The notes beneath the pieces were generated by a model that was not told the DNA's origin, made no database searches, and saw only the letters and a program-made list of their open reading frames with translations. DNA of 64,000 nucleotides. Source: Akkermansia biwaensis. Lineage in GTDB: Bacteria; Verrucomicrobiota; Verrucomicrobiia; Verrucomicrobiales; Akkermansiaceae. The translations under genes and the position numbers were made by a program. Positions 2,844 through 9,154 of the stretch are shown one piece after another (within the stretch, counting starts at the first letter, position 1; every line of letters starts with the position of its first letter). The DNA is taken from contig NZ_AP025943.1 of assembly GCF_026072915.1 (NCBI RefSeq), positions 2,666,001-2,730,000 of the forward strand. The letters run 5' to 3'.

Positions 2844-3791
2844 TCAGATGGGTATTTCCCGGTCGCTGCCGCCGTACATGAAGGTATGCAGCAGGCGCGT
2901 GACCTGGTTCTGGTCGGAATGAAGCTGTGCGGCGGGGCGCAGGGCGGCATAGGTCAGGCTGTCGTGCCCGGTAAATTCCCTCATGTGGAATCCCTGGAAA
3001 TTGGTCATGGGCTCGTTGTCGTGGTACAGCTTGCCTCTTCTCAGCAATTCGTCAAAGACGTGTTCCGCCTCCCGTGTGCGGGTCAGCGCCTTTTCCGGGT
3101 GCGGCACGCGGATGACCAGGGCGCCTCCGTCCCCGCGGAAATTGATGCCCGCGCCGGCCATGACGTCCGCGGAAGGCTGGCTGGTGATACTGCCGAGCAG
3201 CAGCACCCCGTTGTCCACCAAATGGATGCGGTCGCAATGGGCGTATTCCTTCACGTGAAGCACGCCTCCGTAAATGTGGGTGGAAACGCTGCCCGTCAGT
3301 TTTTTAATGCGGGCCAGTCCGTGCCTGATGATGAACTCCGAGCCGTCGCAGGGCAGGTCTATCTCCGAGGCAAAAAGCCAGCCGTCCGTCATCGTGATGC
3401 GCCCTTCGTGCTCCCTGGCTCCCTGAATGCACCCCTGTCCCATCAGCACGCGGCCGCCGTTGATCTCCAGGCTCCCGTTGGCCTTGTCCCCCAGGAACAT
3501 GGTCATGTGGTCCGGCAGGTTGCCGATGAGCGTCAGGGTACCCCCGTTGCGCACGGCCAGGTGGGCGGTGCCGTGGCCGTGGTCCGGCTGGTTGGGGCCG
3601 CCCACATAGACGGGGGCGTTGATGATGTAAAGGCTGCCTCCGGCGTCAATGGTCAGGGAATCCTGAACATCCGTCTGTCCCTGGACCACGTCATTGGTGA
3701 TGGTGACCGGGCACATGTAGGAAACGCGGTTCATGGATGACGCTGAAAGCGGCATCATTCCCGTCAGGATGAATGGGTTGATATTGCTCAT
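2844..3791 (-). CDS. Orphan protein with beta-helix-like repeats
   Basis: I do not recognise a named family for this 315-residue protein. Residues about 45-215 are rich in short strands of the kind LTIDAGGSLYI, AVRNGGTLTLIG and GSLEINGGRVLMG, which resembles the right-handed beta-helix passenger of autotransporter or adhesin proteins. No signal peptide, lipobox, membrane helix or C-terminal barrel is present, so it is either cytoplasmic or exported by an unseen route. The C-terminal 100 residues are more helical and charged. The gene stands alone, with a terminator behind it and a 10-bp tandem repeat array upstream. Confidence 0.6.
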   Translation of the reverse strand: MSNINPFILTGMMPLSASSMNRVSYMCPVTITNDVVQGQTDVQDSLTIDAGGSLYIINAPVYVGGPNQPDHGHGTAHLAVRNGGTLTLIGNLPDHMTMFLGDKANGSLEINGGRVLMGQGCIQGAREHEGRITMTDGWLFASEIDLPCDGSEFIIRHGLARIKKLTGSVSTHIYGGVLHVKEYAHCDRIHLVDNGVLLLGSITSQPSADVMAGAGINFRGDGGALVIRVPHPEKALTRTREAEHVFDELLRRGKLYHDNEPMTNFQGFHMREFTGHDSLTYAALRPAAQLHSDQNQVTRLLHTFMYGGSDREIPI

Positions 3792-4014: not shown

Positions 4015-4356
4015 TCATTCCCATTCCACGCGGGTAAGCTCCAGTTCCCGCCCCCGGAGGATGGCCAGGGCGGGCTCCCCGCAGCCGGGGCAGATGTAGC
4101 CGTGGTCCGTGAAGAGGAAATCCTCTTGGCAGTCGTCGCAGCGGCAGAGGGCCTCCACCCAGGTGACCTCCAGGGCGGCGTTCCCCGCCGCGTAGGCGTC
4201 TTTCAGGGCCAGAAAGGCGGATTGCAGGGCGTCCGGCACCACGCCGCTCAGGCTGCCGATGGTCATGTGCACGCGCACCAGCCGGGAGCCGCCGTTTTCT
4301 TCCAGGAGGCGGCGCGCCATGTCCAGCGCCCCTTCCATGATGCCTACTTCATGCAT
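4015..4356 (-). CDS. hypA: Hydrogenase nickel-insertion protein HypA
   Basis: HypA delivers nickel to the large subunit of [NiFe] hydrogenase. The 113-residue product begins MHEVGIMEG, with the nickel-binding His at position 2, and carries the structural zinc site as CDDC (73-76) and CPGC (89-92), the standard spacing. I chose the ATG at 4356 because it gives this exact N-terminus; a longer frame exists upstream but would bury His2. The start overlaps the end of the protease gene by 8 bp, so translation is probably coupled. It is the last gene of the hydrogenase operon; the other Hyp factors (HypB-F) are not in this window. Confidence 0.95.
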   Translation of the reverse strand: MHEVGIMEGALDMARRLLEENGGSRLVRVHMTIGSLSGVVPDALQSAFLALKDAYAAGNAALEVTWVEALCRCDDCQEDFLFTDHGYICPGCGEPALAILRGRELELTRVEWE

Positions 4357-4918
4357 GGGAGTTTTCCCGGTCCGCGCAGTCCTCCACCGCCCGGGCAATG
4401 AGGTTTTCAATCAGCTCCAGGGCCTGCGGCATGGCCGCCCGCACCTCTGCGGACATGGGCTGGCAGAACTCCGTGTGCGCGGCCTCCACCCCCACCAGCG
4501 TGATGGCGCGCGGCAGGGTGCCGCAGAGCTGGGCGGCGCCCAGCACCTCCTTCATGCCTATCTGGTGCGGGGAAATGACGCGGGAGAAATGGCGGGGGAG
4601 CTCCTCCTTGCTGCGCGTGACGAGCGTGCCCGGCGCGGCCCCCGTCTTCACGGCGTCCACCAGGATGACCGTGTCCGCGTCTTCCAGCAGGGGCAGCAGC
4701 GTCATGCCCAGGGTGCCTCCCTCCTCCACATGCACCAGCGGGCCGTAGTCCCGCTTCTGGAGCCGTTTCGCCAGCTCCACGCCCACTCCGTCGTCCCCCA
4801 TGAGCGGATTGCCCACGCACAGCACGAGCACGGGATAGGCGTTCCCCTTCACGGGGCAGCCGCGCAGGGCTTCCGTATATTCTTCAGCTTCCATGAACGT
4901 TGAACCGGTATTATTCAT
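4349..4918 (-). CDS. hyaD: Hydrogenase maturation endopeptidase (HyaD/HybD family)
   Basis: This protease removes the C-terminal peptide of the large subunit after nickel insertion. The 189-residue sequence has the family motif VGNPLMGDDGVG (about residues 35-46), a second acidic site in LVDAVKTG, and the histidine in SPHQIG; these residues bind the nickel used for substrate recognition. About 25 residues precede the usual N-terminus (YPVLVLCVGN), so a later start is possible, but the chosen ATG overlaps the cytochrome gene by 8 bp in the same style as the other junctions of the operon. Its likely substrate is the large subunit encoded two genes upstream. Confidence 0.93.
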   Translation of the reverse strand: MNNTGSTFMEAEEYTEALRGCPVKGNAYPVLVLCVGNPLMGDDGVGVELAKRLQKRDYGPLVHVEEGGTLGMTLLPLLEDADTVILVDAVKTGAAPGTLVTRSKEELPRHFSRVISPHQIGMKEVLGAAQLCGTLPRAITLVGVEAAHTEFCQPMSAEVRAAMPQALELIENLIARAVEDCADRENSHA

Positions 4919-6083
4919 CCCTGAACTTCACACCCTTGCGCAGCCAGCGGCCGCCGCTGAACATGGAGGAAATGGTGCCGTCCCGGTCCACGTTCCCGGA
5001 AAGAATGGACAGGTACACGTGGATCATGGCGAAAATGATGAAGCACCACATGCCGATCAGGTGGATCAGGCGCACGTACGGAACCCCGATCAGGTCGTTC
5101 AGCGGCATGAACCAGTGGTAGAACCAGTGGCGCGGCTCGTACAGCGCGTACAGGGCCAGCCCGGTGACGATCATGGTGGTGAACAGGACGTACACGCCCG
5201 TGTATGTCCACTGCTGGAGGGGATTGTGGCCGATGTAGCGCGGGCCGTCGTAGCTCCGCGCAAAAACGTAGTCCACCGCCGTGGCGTACAGGTCCTTCCA
5301 CTGTTGTCTGGAGACGGGGAACAGCGCCCGGAAGCTCTGGTACTTGTTGGACGCCATGAAAAAGCAGGAAAAGCGGAGCATCATCACCACCACCAGCGTC
5401 CAGCCCAGGGCGTAATGGACGAAGCGGAGCGTGCCGAACTGAAAAGCGCCGTGCAGGTCCCCCATTTTCAGGAACCAGCCTTCCGCGATGCAGATGCCCG
5501 TGGCGGCCAGGCCGATGATGCAGAACACCCATGTCCAGTGCAGCACCCGCAGCGGCCAGTCCCAGACGTGGAAGTAGCGGAAATTGGCCTTGGCCTTGGA
5601 AAGATGGCGCACGTCCCGCATGGCGTGCATGGGCACCACGCCCAGCAGGCGCCACGGGGCGCCGGAGCGGTGCACGGCAATCCCCACGGGCTGGAAGCCG
5701 GACGGATCGTAGGCTTCAAAAGCCTTGTTCATGCGTTCCTTTTCCAGATTGCTGACCTCGCACAGTTTTTCCAGGGCGTTCAGGTTGCCGCGGGCCACCA
5801 TGAAGGGGACGGCGTCTTCCTTGTCCGCGGCCTTCAGGATGGCGGTGCTGTAATGGCGTTCTCCGGACGGGGCCTCCCAGGAATCCGCCTGCTGGGCGTA
5901 ATTCAGCTGGATGCCGCGTTCCCGTGCCGCGTGCAGCAGGGCCAGGTCCCCCGGGTCCGTGCTCCCGTTGGGGGAGGCGCACACGGCCAGCGCCAGGATT
6001 TCCTCCGGAGAGTAAACGGTACTGGCCGGAATGGCATCCTCCACCACCAGGGTGAGGTCTTCATTGATGAGGGTCGTTTTCAC
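4911..6083 (-). CDS. hyaC: Ni/Fe-hydrogenase b-type cytochrome with an N-terminal P-type-ATPase-like domain
   Basis: Residues about 170-390 are a standard HyaC: four hydrophobic helices with candidate haem histidines in FHVWDWPLRVLHW, RFVHYALGW, RLIHLIGMW and MIHVYLSI. It anchors the hydrogenase and passes electrons to the quinone pool. HyaC proteins are normally about 220-240 residues; here 155-170 residues precede the first helix. That extension starts KTTLINEDLTL, continues YSPEEILALAVCAS, TDPGDLALLHAA and FMVARGNLNALEKLCE, and ends GFQPVGIAVHR and WRLLGVVP. In order and spacing this follows the nucleotide-binding domain of plasma-membrane-type H+-ATPases, from the KTGTLT motif (without its aspartate) to the LGVMP strand. 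The start overlaps the large-subunit gene by 4 bp (ATGA), which supports the long form. See findings. Confidence 0.88.
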   Translation of the reverse strand: MKTTLINEDLTLVVEDAIPASTVYSPEEILALAVCASPNGSTDPGDLALLHAARERGIQLNYAQQADSWEAPSGERHYSTAILKAADKEDAVPFMVARGNLNALEKLCEVSNLEKERMNKAFEAYDPSGFQPVGIAVHRSGAPWRLLGVVPMHAMRDVRHLSKAKANFRYFHVWDWPLRVLHWTWVFCIIGLAATGICIAEGWFLKMGDLHGAFQFGTLRFVHYALGWTLVVVMMLRFSCFFMASNKYQSFRALFPVSRQQWKDLYATAVDYVFARSYDGPRYIGHNPLQQWTYTGVYVLFTTMIVTGLALYALYEPRHWFYHWFMPLNDLIGVPYVRLIHLIGMWCFIIFAMIHVYLSILSGNVDRDGTISSMFSGGRWLRKGVKFRDE

Positions 6084-7837
6084 GGGTCCTGTCTGGTCAT
6101 AATGGCCTCTCCCTCTTCGTCAAACAGATGGACGGCGCAGGATTGGCACGGGTCATAGCTGTGAATGGTGCGCAGGGGCTCCACGGGTCGGGACGGGTCC
6201 ACCAGCGGATGCGTTCCGGTGTGGGCCAGGGAATACTCGTAAGGCCCCATCTGGCCTTCCGCGTCCCGTCCGGAACTGTTCCAGGTGCTGGGAACCACGG
6301 CCTGGTAATTCACCGTCTGGCCGTTTTCAATCCTTACCCAGTGGCTGAGGCTGCCGCGGGGGGCTTCCACCCAGCCCACACCCTTGCAGGAGGAGGGCCA
6401 TGTCTCGGGCTCCCATTTCTCCGGGTTGAAGGTGGCGGTTTCCCCGTTCTTGATGCGGTTCGTCATTTCCTGGAGCTGGTCCACCATCATGTCCACGTTG
6501 ATCATGGCGTCCAGGGCGCGGCCGTACACGCGGCCCAGCGTGGAATTCATGAAGGCGTTGTCGCGCGGCAATCCCAGCTTGTCGCAGGCGGCGTCCACCC
6601 GCTCCACGATGGCGGGAACGCCCTGGGCGTAGCCGATCATCATGCGGGCGTTCGGTCCCACGGCCATGGCGTGGCCGTCGTAGCGCGGAGCTTTCACCCA
6701 GGTGTACTGGGGCCGGTCGGAAAGCCATTTGTAGGGAGGCCTGGGCCCGTTGTAATCCGCGTCCGTCTGGCCGTCGTACGGGGCCAGTCCCGCGTCCCGG
6801 CCCTCCGTGTACTTGTACCACGCGCTGGTGACGAACTCCTTGATCTTGTCCTGGTCAAAGGGAAGGACATTCTTGTAATCCCCGTTCAGCAGCACGCCCG
6901 GCTTGATCATGCCTTTGCCGGCAGGAGCCCCGGTATTGATTTCAGACGGGTCCCCGGTGCAGAACAGGTTGGGGTTGGAAGCGCCGATATGGGCGTAATC
7001 CTTGTAAAAACCGGCAATGGCCACGATGTCCGGGTAATACACCTTGTGGATGAAATCGTGGCAGGTATCCACGAGCTGTTTCAGGTAGCTCAGGGAAAAC
7101 TGGTTGATGGCCTGGTCGTTGTTCATGTTGATGGCGCAGGCCATGCCGCCCACCAGGAAATTGGGGTGCGGGTTCTTGCCGCCCAGGATGGTGTGGATCT
7201 TGATCATGTCCCGCTGCCAGACGAGGGCCTGGAGGTAATGCGCCACGCCCAGCAGGTTCACTGCCGGCGGCAGCTTGTAGGCCGGGTGGCCCCAGTAGCC
7301 GTTCGTGAAGATGGAATACTGCCCGTGGGCGATGGAATCCTTCAGCTTCTTCTGCACCCCGGCAAAATACGTGGCGGAGGAAAGGGGCCAGTCGGAAAGG
7401 GACTTGGCAATCGCGGCGGTCTCATTCGGGTCCGCCTTCAGGGCGGAAACCACATCCACCCAGTCCATGGCCTGGAGCTGGTAGAAATGGATCACGTGGT
7501 CCTGAATGCCCAGGGCTCCGCTGACCAGGTCCCGCATAAGTTTGGCCTGGATGGGCACGGGATATTGCAGGGCGTCTTCCACCGCGGCCAGCGCGGCAAT
7601 GGCGTGGGTGCCCGTGCAGACGCCGCAGATGCGTTCCACAAAGGCCCACACGTCGCGCGGATCGCGCTTGCAGGCGATTACTTCAATGCCGCGGTACTGC
7701 GTGGTGGACGTCCAGGCGTTCTTGATCACGCCGTCTCCGGCCTCCATCTCCACCCGCAGGTGGCCTTCGATGCGCGTCACGGGGTCGATGACCACGCGGC
7801 TGGATTCCGGAACGGCCGCTGATGTGTAATTGCTCAT
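6080..7837 (-). CDS. hyaB: [NiFe] hydrogenase large subunit
   Basis: This 585-residue catalytic subunit oxidises H2 at the NiFe(CN)2CO centre. The N-terminal ligand motif is RICGVCTGTH (Cys71, Cys74), and the C-terminal motif is DPCQSCAVH (Cys564, Cys567). Cleavage after His570 by HyaD would release a 15-residue peptide ending RQDP. The N-terminus VVIDPVTRIEGHLRVE is typical of group 1 membrane-bound uptake enzymes. Partnership with a Tat-exported small subunit and a cytochrome b places the enzyme on the periplasmic face. It lies 23 bp after the small-subunit gene and overlaps the cytochrome gene by 4 bp. Confidence 0.97.
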   Translation of the reverse strand: MSNYTSAAVPESSRVVIDPVTRIEGHLRVEMEAGDGVIKNAWTSTTQYRGIEVIACKRDPRDVWAFVERICGVCTGTHAIAALAAVEDALQYPVPIQAKLMRDLVSGALGIQDHVIHFYQLQAMDWVDVVSALKADPNETAAIAKSLSDWPLSSATYFAGVQKKLKDSIAHGQYSIFTNGYWGHPAYKLPPAVNLLGVAHYLQALVWQRDMIKIHTILGGKNPHPNFLVGGMACAINMNNDQAINQFSLSYLKQLVDTCHDFIHKVYYPDIVAIAGFYKDYAHIGASNPNLFCTGDPSEINTGAPAGKGMIKPGVLLNGDYKNVLPFDQDKIKEFVTSAWYKYTEGRDAGLAPYDGQTDADYNGPRPPYKWLSDRPQYTWVKAPRYDGHAMAVGPNARMMIGYAQGVPAIVERVDAACDKLGLPRDNAFMNSTLGRVYGRALDAMINVDMMVDQLQEMTNRIKNGETATFNPEKWEPETWPSSCKGVGWVEAPRGSLSHWVRIENGQTVNYQAVVPSTWNSSGRDAEGQMGPYEYSLAHTGTHPLVDPSRPVEPLRTIHSYDPCQSCAVHLFDEEGEAIMTRQDP

Positions 7838-7860: not shown

Positions 7861-9081
7861 TTATTCTTCAGTTTCCTTGTCGGGGGAGCCGGGCGCGTCC
7901 CCGAAGGCGGGCAGGGAGACGTTCGCCTCCTCCTTCATGTGCTGCCGCTTGTAGTGAATGGCGGACCCCACCGCATGGGCGGCGATGGCCGTGCCCGCGG
8001 CGGCTACGCCCACGGCGCCGATCACGTTGGCGGAGGCCTCCACGCCGAAGCCGTTCACATTGGGCAGCGTCTTGTAGAAGGGAGTCATGCGGTCGAAGAA
8101 ATACAGCTCCGTGCAACCGATGCACGGATGCCCGGACTGGATGGGGAAGCTGACCCCGCCGTTCCACTTGACGATGGGGCAGGGGGAGAAAGTGTCCGGC
8201 CCCTTGCAGCCCACCTTGTACAGGCAGAAGCATTCGCGCGCGTTCTCGTCGTCAAACACGTTCACGAACTGGCCGGCGTCAAAATGGGCGCGGCGCGGGC
8301 AATTGTTGTGGATGCGCGTGCCGTACGCCATCAGGGGGCGCGTTTCCAGGTCGCACTCCGGTGCGCGGTCAAAAGTGAGAATGTACATGATCACGGCCGT
8401 GATCACGTCCCCGATGGGGGGGCAGCCCGGCACGTTGATGACCGTGCGGTCCGTCAGGATGTCCCGCACGCCCACGGCCCCCGTGGGATTGGGGCGGGCG
8501 GCCTGGATGGAGCCGAAGTAGGCGCAGGAGCCCACGGCCAGGATATAGGAGGCGTTCTCCGCGCAGCGGCGCAGCAGGTGTTCCACCGTTTCCCCGGCCA
8601 CGGTGCAGTAAATGCCGCCGTCGTTGACCGGAACGGACCCGTTGATAACCAGGATGTGGGGTTCCTTGATCGCCTCTTCCAGCGCCTGGTTGGCCGCCTC
8701 CCCGGAGGGGGCCATGAGCAATTCCACATACGGCATGGACACGGCGGAAAGCACCATGTCCCCGATCTCCTCATTATAGCTGCGGATGGTGCTTTCCAGG
8801 CACCCGGTGCATTCCTGAAGCTGGAGCCAGATAACCACGGGCCGTTTGAGATTCGCCATCTTGTCCGCGATTTCCTGGGCGTTGGAAACGCCGCCGCTCA
8901 CGGAGGCCACGCCCATCAGGGCGATCATTTTCAGGCACCATTTATTGAATTCCCGGCGGCTGACGCCGCGCCGCTCCATGTGTTCTCCCAGGGTTTCCCC
9001 GGGTCGCCAGGTGGTTAGAATCTCATGGTTCAGGGAGGCCTGTTCCGCCTCCTTCAGGGAAGATAGCTCAGTGCGCTTCAT
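7861..9081 (-). CDS. hyaA: [NiFe] hydrogenase small subunit with Tat signal
   Basis: The small subunit carries the Fe-S clusters that move electrons from the NiFe site to cytochrome b. A twin-arginine signal (SRREFNKW, followed by a hydrophobic stretch) exports the folded pair. Cluster ligands are visible in QECTGCLES, GSCAYFG, PGCPP, HNNCPRRAHF, the CFCLYKVGCKGP region and HPCIGCTE. A C-terminal hydrophobic helix (about residues 355-375) anchors it in the membrane. I placed the start at MKRTELSS (9081), giving 406 residues. The ATG at 8979 (MERRGVSRREF) has a better GGGAG ribosome site and matches the E. coli HyaA pattern near the Tat motif, so it is a real alternative; an open frame also extends up to 9150. 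Confidence 0.95.
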   Translation of the reverse strand: MKRTELSSLKEAEQASLNHEILTTWRPGETLGEHMERRGVSRREFNKWCLKMIALMGVASVSGGVSNAQEIADKMANLKRPVVIWLQLQECTGCLESTIRSYNEEIGDMVLSAVSMPYVELLMAPSGEAANQALEEAIKEPHILVINGSVPVNDGGIYCTVAGETVEHLLRRCAENASYILAVGSCAYFGSIQAARPNPTGAVGVRDILTDRTVINVPGCPPIGDVITAVIMYILTFDRAPECDLETRPLMAYGTRIHNNCPRRAHFDAGQFVNVFDDENARECFCLYKVGCKGPDTFSPCPIVKWNGGVSFPIQSGHPCIGCTELYFFDRMTPFYKTLPNVNGFGVEASANVIGAVGVAAAGTAIAAHAVGSAIHYKRQHMKEEANVSLPAFGDAPGSPDKETEE

Positions 9082-9138
9082 GTGCGTGGTCCGGGTAAAT
9101 ATGTTTCCATTTAGACACGATTTCCGGGAAATGCGATC

Positions 9139-9154
9139 AATATTTTCCAATATT
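9139..9154. promoter_or_regulatory. Inverted repeat upstream of hyaA
   Basis: AATATT, a 4-bp spacer and AATATT form a perfect inverted repeat 58 bp upstream of the hyaA start, in the gap after the porin gene. It could be an operator for the hydrogenase operon; AT-rich palindromes of this size also occur by chance. Confidence 0.3.

Follow-up and report, generated by a model that had tools for sequence, protein, structure and literature searches.

Two groups of described proteins bear on the locus considered here. HyaC of Escherichia coli hydrogenase-1 (4gd3; TIGR02125) is a cytochrome b subunit of 235 residues whose gene stands in the order hyaA-hyaB-hyaC-hyaD, and the P3A-type H+-ATPases (TIGR01647), including yeast Pma1 and Arabidopsis AHA2, are pumps that contain a nucleotide-binding (N) domain. 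In Akkermansia biwaensis (NZ_AP025943.1, positions 2,666,001-2,730,000 of the forward strand; this 64,000-nucleotide stretch as a whole is called the window), features of both occur in one protein of 390 residues, with N-domain and cytochrome in a common reading frame. Akkermansia HyaC shares its cytochrome b domain and gene order with E. coli HyaC, but about 165 extra residues lie ahead of the cytochrome, where the E. coli protein has no such domain. This front end shares with P3A pumps the N-domain profile, the fold and a pair of adenine-contacting Asp residues, whereas the phosphorylated-Asp motif, P-domain, A-domain and membrane part of the pump are absent and the lysine of the KGAP motif is replaced by arginine. 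Profile, reverse profile and predicted fold support its identification as a P3A-type N-domain fused to HyaC. The best explanation, to which we assign a probability of roughly 0.4, is that the fused domain binds an adenine nucleotide and couples hydrogenase electron flow to the adenylate state of the cell. The features of the gene are listed below; here and throughout, counts out of 12 refer to an alignment (A1) of 12 HyaC domain sequences, that of the window among them.

4911..6083, minus strand: hyaC, fusion of N-domain and hydrogenase b-type cytochrome, 390 residues, GTG start, stop codon at 4911-4913
5619..6083, minus strand: P3A-type N-domain, residues 1-155; profile match over residues 11-152 (5628-6053)
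5946..5957, minus strand: Asp43-x-x-Asp46, aligned with Asp372 and Asp375 of AHA2 (5ksd); invariant in 12 of 12
5790..5792, minus strand: Arg98, aligned with the KGAP lysine of P3A pumps; arginine in 12 of 12
4944..5576, minus strand: cytochrome b part, residues 170-380; PF01292; E. coli HyaC chain 4gd3_A at an expectation value (E) of 3.3e-20
6080..6083, minus strand: start of hyaC overlapping the stop of hyaB as GTGA; GTGA or ATGA here in 12 of 12 homologues

Residues 1-164, searched alone, gave a single NCBIfam match, to TIGR01647 (ATPase-IIIA_H; E = 5.7e-8), in which residues 11-152 fall on model positions 301-439 of 755, confined to the N-domain stretch; all 12 rows of the alignment match the same family (best 7.9e-11). 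At E ≤ 0.001 TIGR01647 also matches other P-type ATPases, in 31 of 32 genomes and 14 of 14 control genomes, and the match therefore shows a P-type N-domain, the P3A type requiring comparison with pumps. When a profile of the HyaC N-domain was compared with 36 ATPase reading frames (duplicates included), 13 matched, five of them distinct, and all were pumps with at least 614 bits to TIGR01647. In the reverse search, a profile of four Verrucomicrobiota P3A N-domains scored the 12 HyaC domains at 33.8-40.2 bits; in a control with 2000 shuffled sequences, the same profile reported 1508, the best at 10.2 bits. Searches of other kinds gave less. Pfam returned 0 families for the window domain, the Cation_ATPase family suggested for it (PF13246, presumably) included, and weak unrelated matches for the other aligned domains (best E 0.076); a phmmer search of PDB sequences with the single domain gave four matches (MotX, ferredoxin; E 0.55-0.82) and no ATPase. 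With the 12-row profile, AHA2 came out at E = 0.0079 among PDB sequences; the next match was an ankyrin protein (0.016), ahead of Pma1 (0.044-0.049). The PDB sequence evidence is weak by itself, and the domain is identified by the TIGR01647 match together with the comparison with Verrucomicrobiota P3A pumps and the predicted fold.

An original prediction, made from the DNA letters without database searches, had described 155-170 extra N-terminal residues resembling a P3A N-domain that lacked the phosphorylated Asp and the P-domain. The length found agrees with this estimate, the profile searches in both directions and the predicted fold agree with the resemblance, and the DKTGT motif and the P-domain are indeed absent from all 390 residues, the TIGR01647 match covering only model positions 301-439. 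The motif pairings drawn with P3A pumps also reappear in computed alignments, where TDPGDLAL pairs with NDAIDLAI, ARGNL with TKGAP, GFQPVGIA with GYRALGIA and WRLLGVVP with WRLLGIIP. One pairing, that of KTT as a remnant of DKTGT, is weak: the two most divergent members have KTR (L009) and NAR (L010), and the MAFFT alignment does not place KTT on DKTGT.

Fold prediction with comparison to Pma1, raised as a check in the original prediction, agrees as well: the predicted structure of the domain has the P-type N-domain fold; in the structural alignment the Pma1 ranges, given by first and last aligned residue only, start at 220-233, beyond the N-domain. The end of the domain aligns with the DPPR hinge that leads to the P-domain in P3A pumps (IPMFDPPRDD versus VPMH-AMRDVR), and because it ends at this position the module corresponds to an N-domain cut cleanly from its P-domain. 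About 20 residues further on, the first long helix begins in the full-length model.

Comparison with AHA2 also bears on the nucleotide site. According to a report on re-refined AHA2, the N-domain residues Asp372 and Asp375 can contact adenine, the ribose can contact the Ser457 backbone, and only Mg and residues of the P-domain hold the gamma-phosphate (PMC5387105). The two aspartates align with the invariant Asp43 and Asp46, AHA2 numbers being taken as chain index plus 11, an inferred offset that lands on Asp-x-x-Asp as the residue numbers in that report require (PMC5387105). The adenine pocket may thus be kept and the phosphate side changed. The KGAP lysine that marks P3A N-domains, which we take to be Lys474 of Pma1, is replaced by Arg98 in 12 of 12 sequences, a substitution already noticed in the original prediction. 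Pma1 Lys474 is described as reactive with fluorescein isothiocyanate (PMC3692421). As the P-domain is absent, hydrolysis by the usual mechanism is impossible. We consider it slightly less likely than not that the domain binds an adenine nucleotide.

The remainder of the protein is a hydrogenase b-type cytochrome. PF01292 (cytochrome b561 domain) covers residues 173-377 with 92 bits against a cut-off of 30.1, and TIGR02125 covers residues 173-379 (model positions 2-208 of 212) with 118.8 bits, just below its curated naming cut-off of 121.5; the protein is therefore called HyaC-type from its domain and gene order. A profile of full HyaC found a sole match among PDB sequences at E ≤ 1, E. coli HyaC, aligned from residue 170. 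His182, His223, His341 and His355 are invariant in the HyaC alignment and may be the four haem-ligating residues of the membrane helices. Four long helices appear in this part of the full-length AlphaFold2 model, which is poor there, with a predicted local distance difference test (pLDDT) score below 50 at residues 155-209 and 211-390, and which carries no information on the packing of the N-domain against the cytochrome. Open reading frames and profile matches in the window give the minus-strand order hyaA, hyaB, hyaC, hyaD and then a hypA-like gene, the neighbours of hyaC being as follows.

7861..9150, minus strand: hyaA, nickel-iron hydrogenase small subunit (TIGR00391, 398 bits, cut-off 179.5); start codon uncertain
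6080..7837, minus strand: hyaB, nickel-iron hydrogenase large subunit (NF007550, E = 3.3e-177, 590.5 bits, below the equivalog cut-off of 1101)
4349..4918, minus strand: hyaD, hydrogenase maturation protease (TIGR00072, 143.7 bits, cut-off 47.45)
4015..4410, minus strand: hypA-like nickel metallochaperone (TIGR00100, 70.2 bits, below the cut-off of 88.1; match from residue 19 of the open reading frame)

In all 12 sequences hyaC can start at a GTG or ATG that overlaps a stop as GTGA or ATGA; TGA was confirmed by frame as the hyaB stop in the window, L003, L009 and L010. Because the hyaC start sits on the hyaB stop, translational coupling of the two genes is suggested. AGGA lies just 3 nucleotides ahead of the GTG, and this upstream start is not strongly marked.

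The distribution of the fusion was followed at three levels. In a survey of the genus in which every candidate was scored, HyaC occurs in 14 of 76 genomes, and in all 14 the match spans the model, starting at position 1 or 2 and ending at 390. The samples of the class (384 genomes) and phylum (387) overlap, with at most four candidates scored per genome, and a lack of matches is therefore no proof that a genome is empty. In the class, 38 genomes match, comprising 13 genus members over the full model, 14 genomes over the cytochrome only (E from 2e-34 to 9e-11; open frames have 234-278 residues, apart from the 427 of G167) and 11 through the N-domain alone, in 15 frames that are as long as whole pumps (776-1173 residues). 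In the phylum, 25 match (12 full, nine cytochrome only, four pumps). G531, from another genus of the same family, has a HyaC of ordinary size (open frame of 251 residues; at most six candidates scored per genome), and a contig scan with two narrow patterns gave five loci, four from Akkermansia and one from Akkermansiaceae. Overall, the fusion appears confined to Akkermansia among the genomes searched, whole-genome searches having been made within the phylum and other phyla being barely covered. Conservation of the domain, raised as a check in the original prediction, thus holds for the 14 HyaC genes of the genus and does not extend to the other Verrucomicrobiota HyaC examined.

Some apparent exceptions were set aside. 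Six E. coli plasmid matches over residues 1-379 seem to be an artefact; in the one examined (L084), the alignment at 1501-2562 runs from hyaC (1897-2604) back past the stop codon of hyaB and into that gene, and HyaC as annotated there has the usual length. Among the matches listed (40 rows, 78 records), the other 34 all begin at residue 145 or later. The 427-residue frame of G167 is likewise an ordinary HyaC: upstream, the open frame continues over hyaB out of frame with it, and an ATG stands after the hyaB stop. Within the genus, HyaC is patchy: all 14 genomes that have it are at least 2.7 megabases (Mb), no genome below that size has it (many of those being incomplete), and it is also missing from a few of 2.7-2.8 Mb.

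With regard to origin, the TIGR01647 cut-off is passed in four of 32 genomes and in none of 18 from the genus, in which no resident P3A pump was thus found; the P-type ATPases of 915-923 residues from the genus in this set do not match the HyaC N-domain profile. As none of these 18 genomes has a P3A pump over the cut-off, the domain seems not to derive from a resident pump. In one genome (G014, C1:518354-520113), the best P-type ATPase by TIGR01647 consists of two matches, one with an in-frame TAA. In other Verrucomicrobiae (L036-L041) the cytochrome match directly follows hyaB, as in the window, and lacks the N-domain, and the available part of HyaB is 47-49% identical to that of the window, whereas the cytochrome is just 30-33% identical. 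Faster divergence of the cytochrome, or its exchange, may have accompanied the gain of the N-domain.

Both parts are under constraint. For eight homologues with synonymous divergence (dS) of 0.47-0.71 from the window, the ratio of nonsynonymous to synonymous divergence (dN/dS) is 0.17-0.33 in the domain versus 0.02-0.06 in the cytochrome, and for L002, nearly identical to the window, it is 0.07 in the domain. Values of 0.35 for L009 and 0.59 for L010 are unreliable, their synonymous sites being near saturation; identity to the window is 38% and 34% in the domain and 75% and 69% in the cytochrome, respectively. These ratios indicate purifying selection on the domain, looser than that on the cytochrome.

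HyaC is best seen as the b-haem membrane subunit of a HyaABC-type uptake hydrogenase to which a P3A-type N-domain is directly joined. In the proposed mechanism, this N-domain would lie in the cytoplasm, where it would bind an adenine nucleotide without hydrolysis, through the kept Asp43/Asp46 pocket and with Arg98 in place of the KGAP lysine. Binding would move the neighbouring first membrane helix or alter its dynamics, and the passage of electrons from HyaAB via the haems to quinone would thereby follow the adenylate state of the cell. The positive-inside rule predicts that the N-terminus and domain are cytoplasmic; HyaA has a visible twin-arginine-like signal, and HyaAB is presumably outside, as is known for the HyaABC family. 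A cytoplasmic module on the first membrane helix could sense adenylates and alter haem-to-quinone transfer, or could dock a partner. Several observations weigh against adenylate coupling. At the positions of SERCA Phe487, Lys492 and Arg560, which we take to be usual ATP-site residues, the HyaC domains have Glu/Gln/Ile/Thr (next to an invariant Trp69), Glu/Thr/Lys, and Gln/Glu in 10 of 12 with Arg otherwise. In addition, four of five AlphaFold2 models of the domain have a mean pLDDT of just 43-55, the domain evolves faster than the cytochrome, so that the site may have been repurposed, and regulation is not implied by homology. Sensing of ATP/ADP and tuning of H2 oxidation, as originally suggested, remains an inference, and the further idea that a pump N-domain became an adenylate sensor on an electron-transfer subunit, so that energy charge would directly control H2 oxidation in a widespread commensal of the gut, is tentative and rather doubtful.

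A serious competitor, which we place somewhat short of even odds, is that the N-domain has lost nucleotide binding and acts as a structural or docking module that holds HyaABC, recruits a cytoplasmic partner or aids assembly. Of five SERCA ATP-site positions considered, three are unconserved, and the KGAP lysine is Arg, while the residues invariant elsewhere in the domain (Trp69, Pro72, Arg76, Tyr78-Ser79-Thr80 and Trp144) suggest a kept fold and surface, on a domain that is constrained, yet less so than the cytochrome. However, both aspartates aligned with the adenine-contacting pair of AHA2 are invariant, and a pure scaffold would not need them. Binding of some other small ligand, such as another nucleotide or a phosphorylated metabolite, in a pocket remodelled for it is unlikely: the pocket changes are consistent rather than random, with Arg98-Gly99, Trp69 and Arg76 invariant across members 34-38% identical to the window, but no result indicates such a ligand. 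Least probable of those still standing is that the domain is a functionless relic within a translated fusion, or that a second start at Met152 or Met155 gives an ordinary HyaC of 236-239 residues. In-frame ATG codons at both positions would yield a protein of roughly normal size, and each of the 12 members has one or both of these Met; against this, no Shine-Dalgarno-like sequence is visible before either ATG in the window, Met152 aligns with the Met of the pump motif IPMFDPP, and all 12 sequences keep the start codon at the end of hyaB. The relic that the original prediction had allowed for is unlikely because of purifying selection and retention of the domain in 14 of 14 HyaC genes of the genus. 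Chance resemblance to a P-type N-domain, for which the empty Pfam result, the single-sequence PDB search and the nearness of the AHA2 and ankyrin E values might speak, is regarded as already refuted.

If adenylate coupling is correct, a P-type ATPase N-domain can exist as an exchangeable module apart from the pump, and this would be, to our knowledge, the first to work outside a P-type ATPase. The presence of such a domain, about 155 residues long, in a hydrogenase cytochrome b suggests that H2 oxidation is directly tied to the energy state of the cytoplasm, and H2 cross-feeding shapes the gut. The parts are known, and no published account of their combination was found in titles and the beginnings of abstracts, most subscription journals lying outside the search; automatic domain databases may already label the fusion. 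Akkermansia is placed among H2 oxidisers inferred from genome evidence, for which culture tests are still called for (PMC12911397).

Adjoining the hydrogenase cluster, at 2844-3791, is a 315-residue protein with no Pfam or NCBIfam match at E ≤ 0.001. The proximal-cluster motif of HyaA (7861-9150) is CTGC, not CTCC, which we take to be the motif of oxygen-tolerant hydrogenases, and the hydrogenase of the window is therefore probably of the oxygen-sensitive kind.
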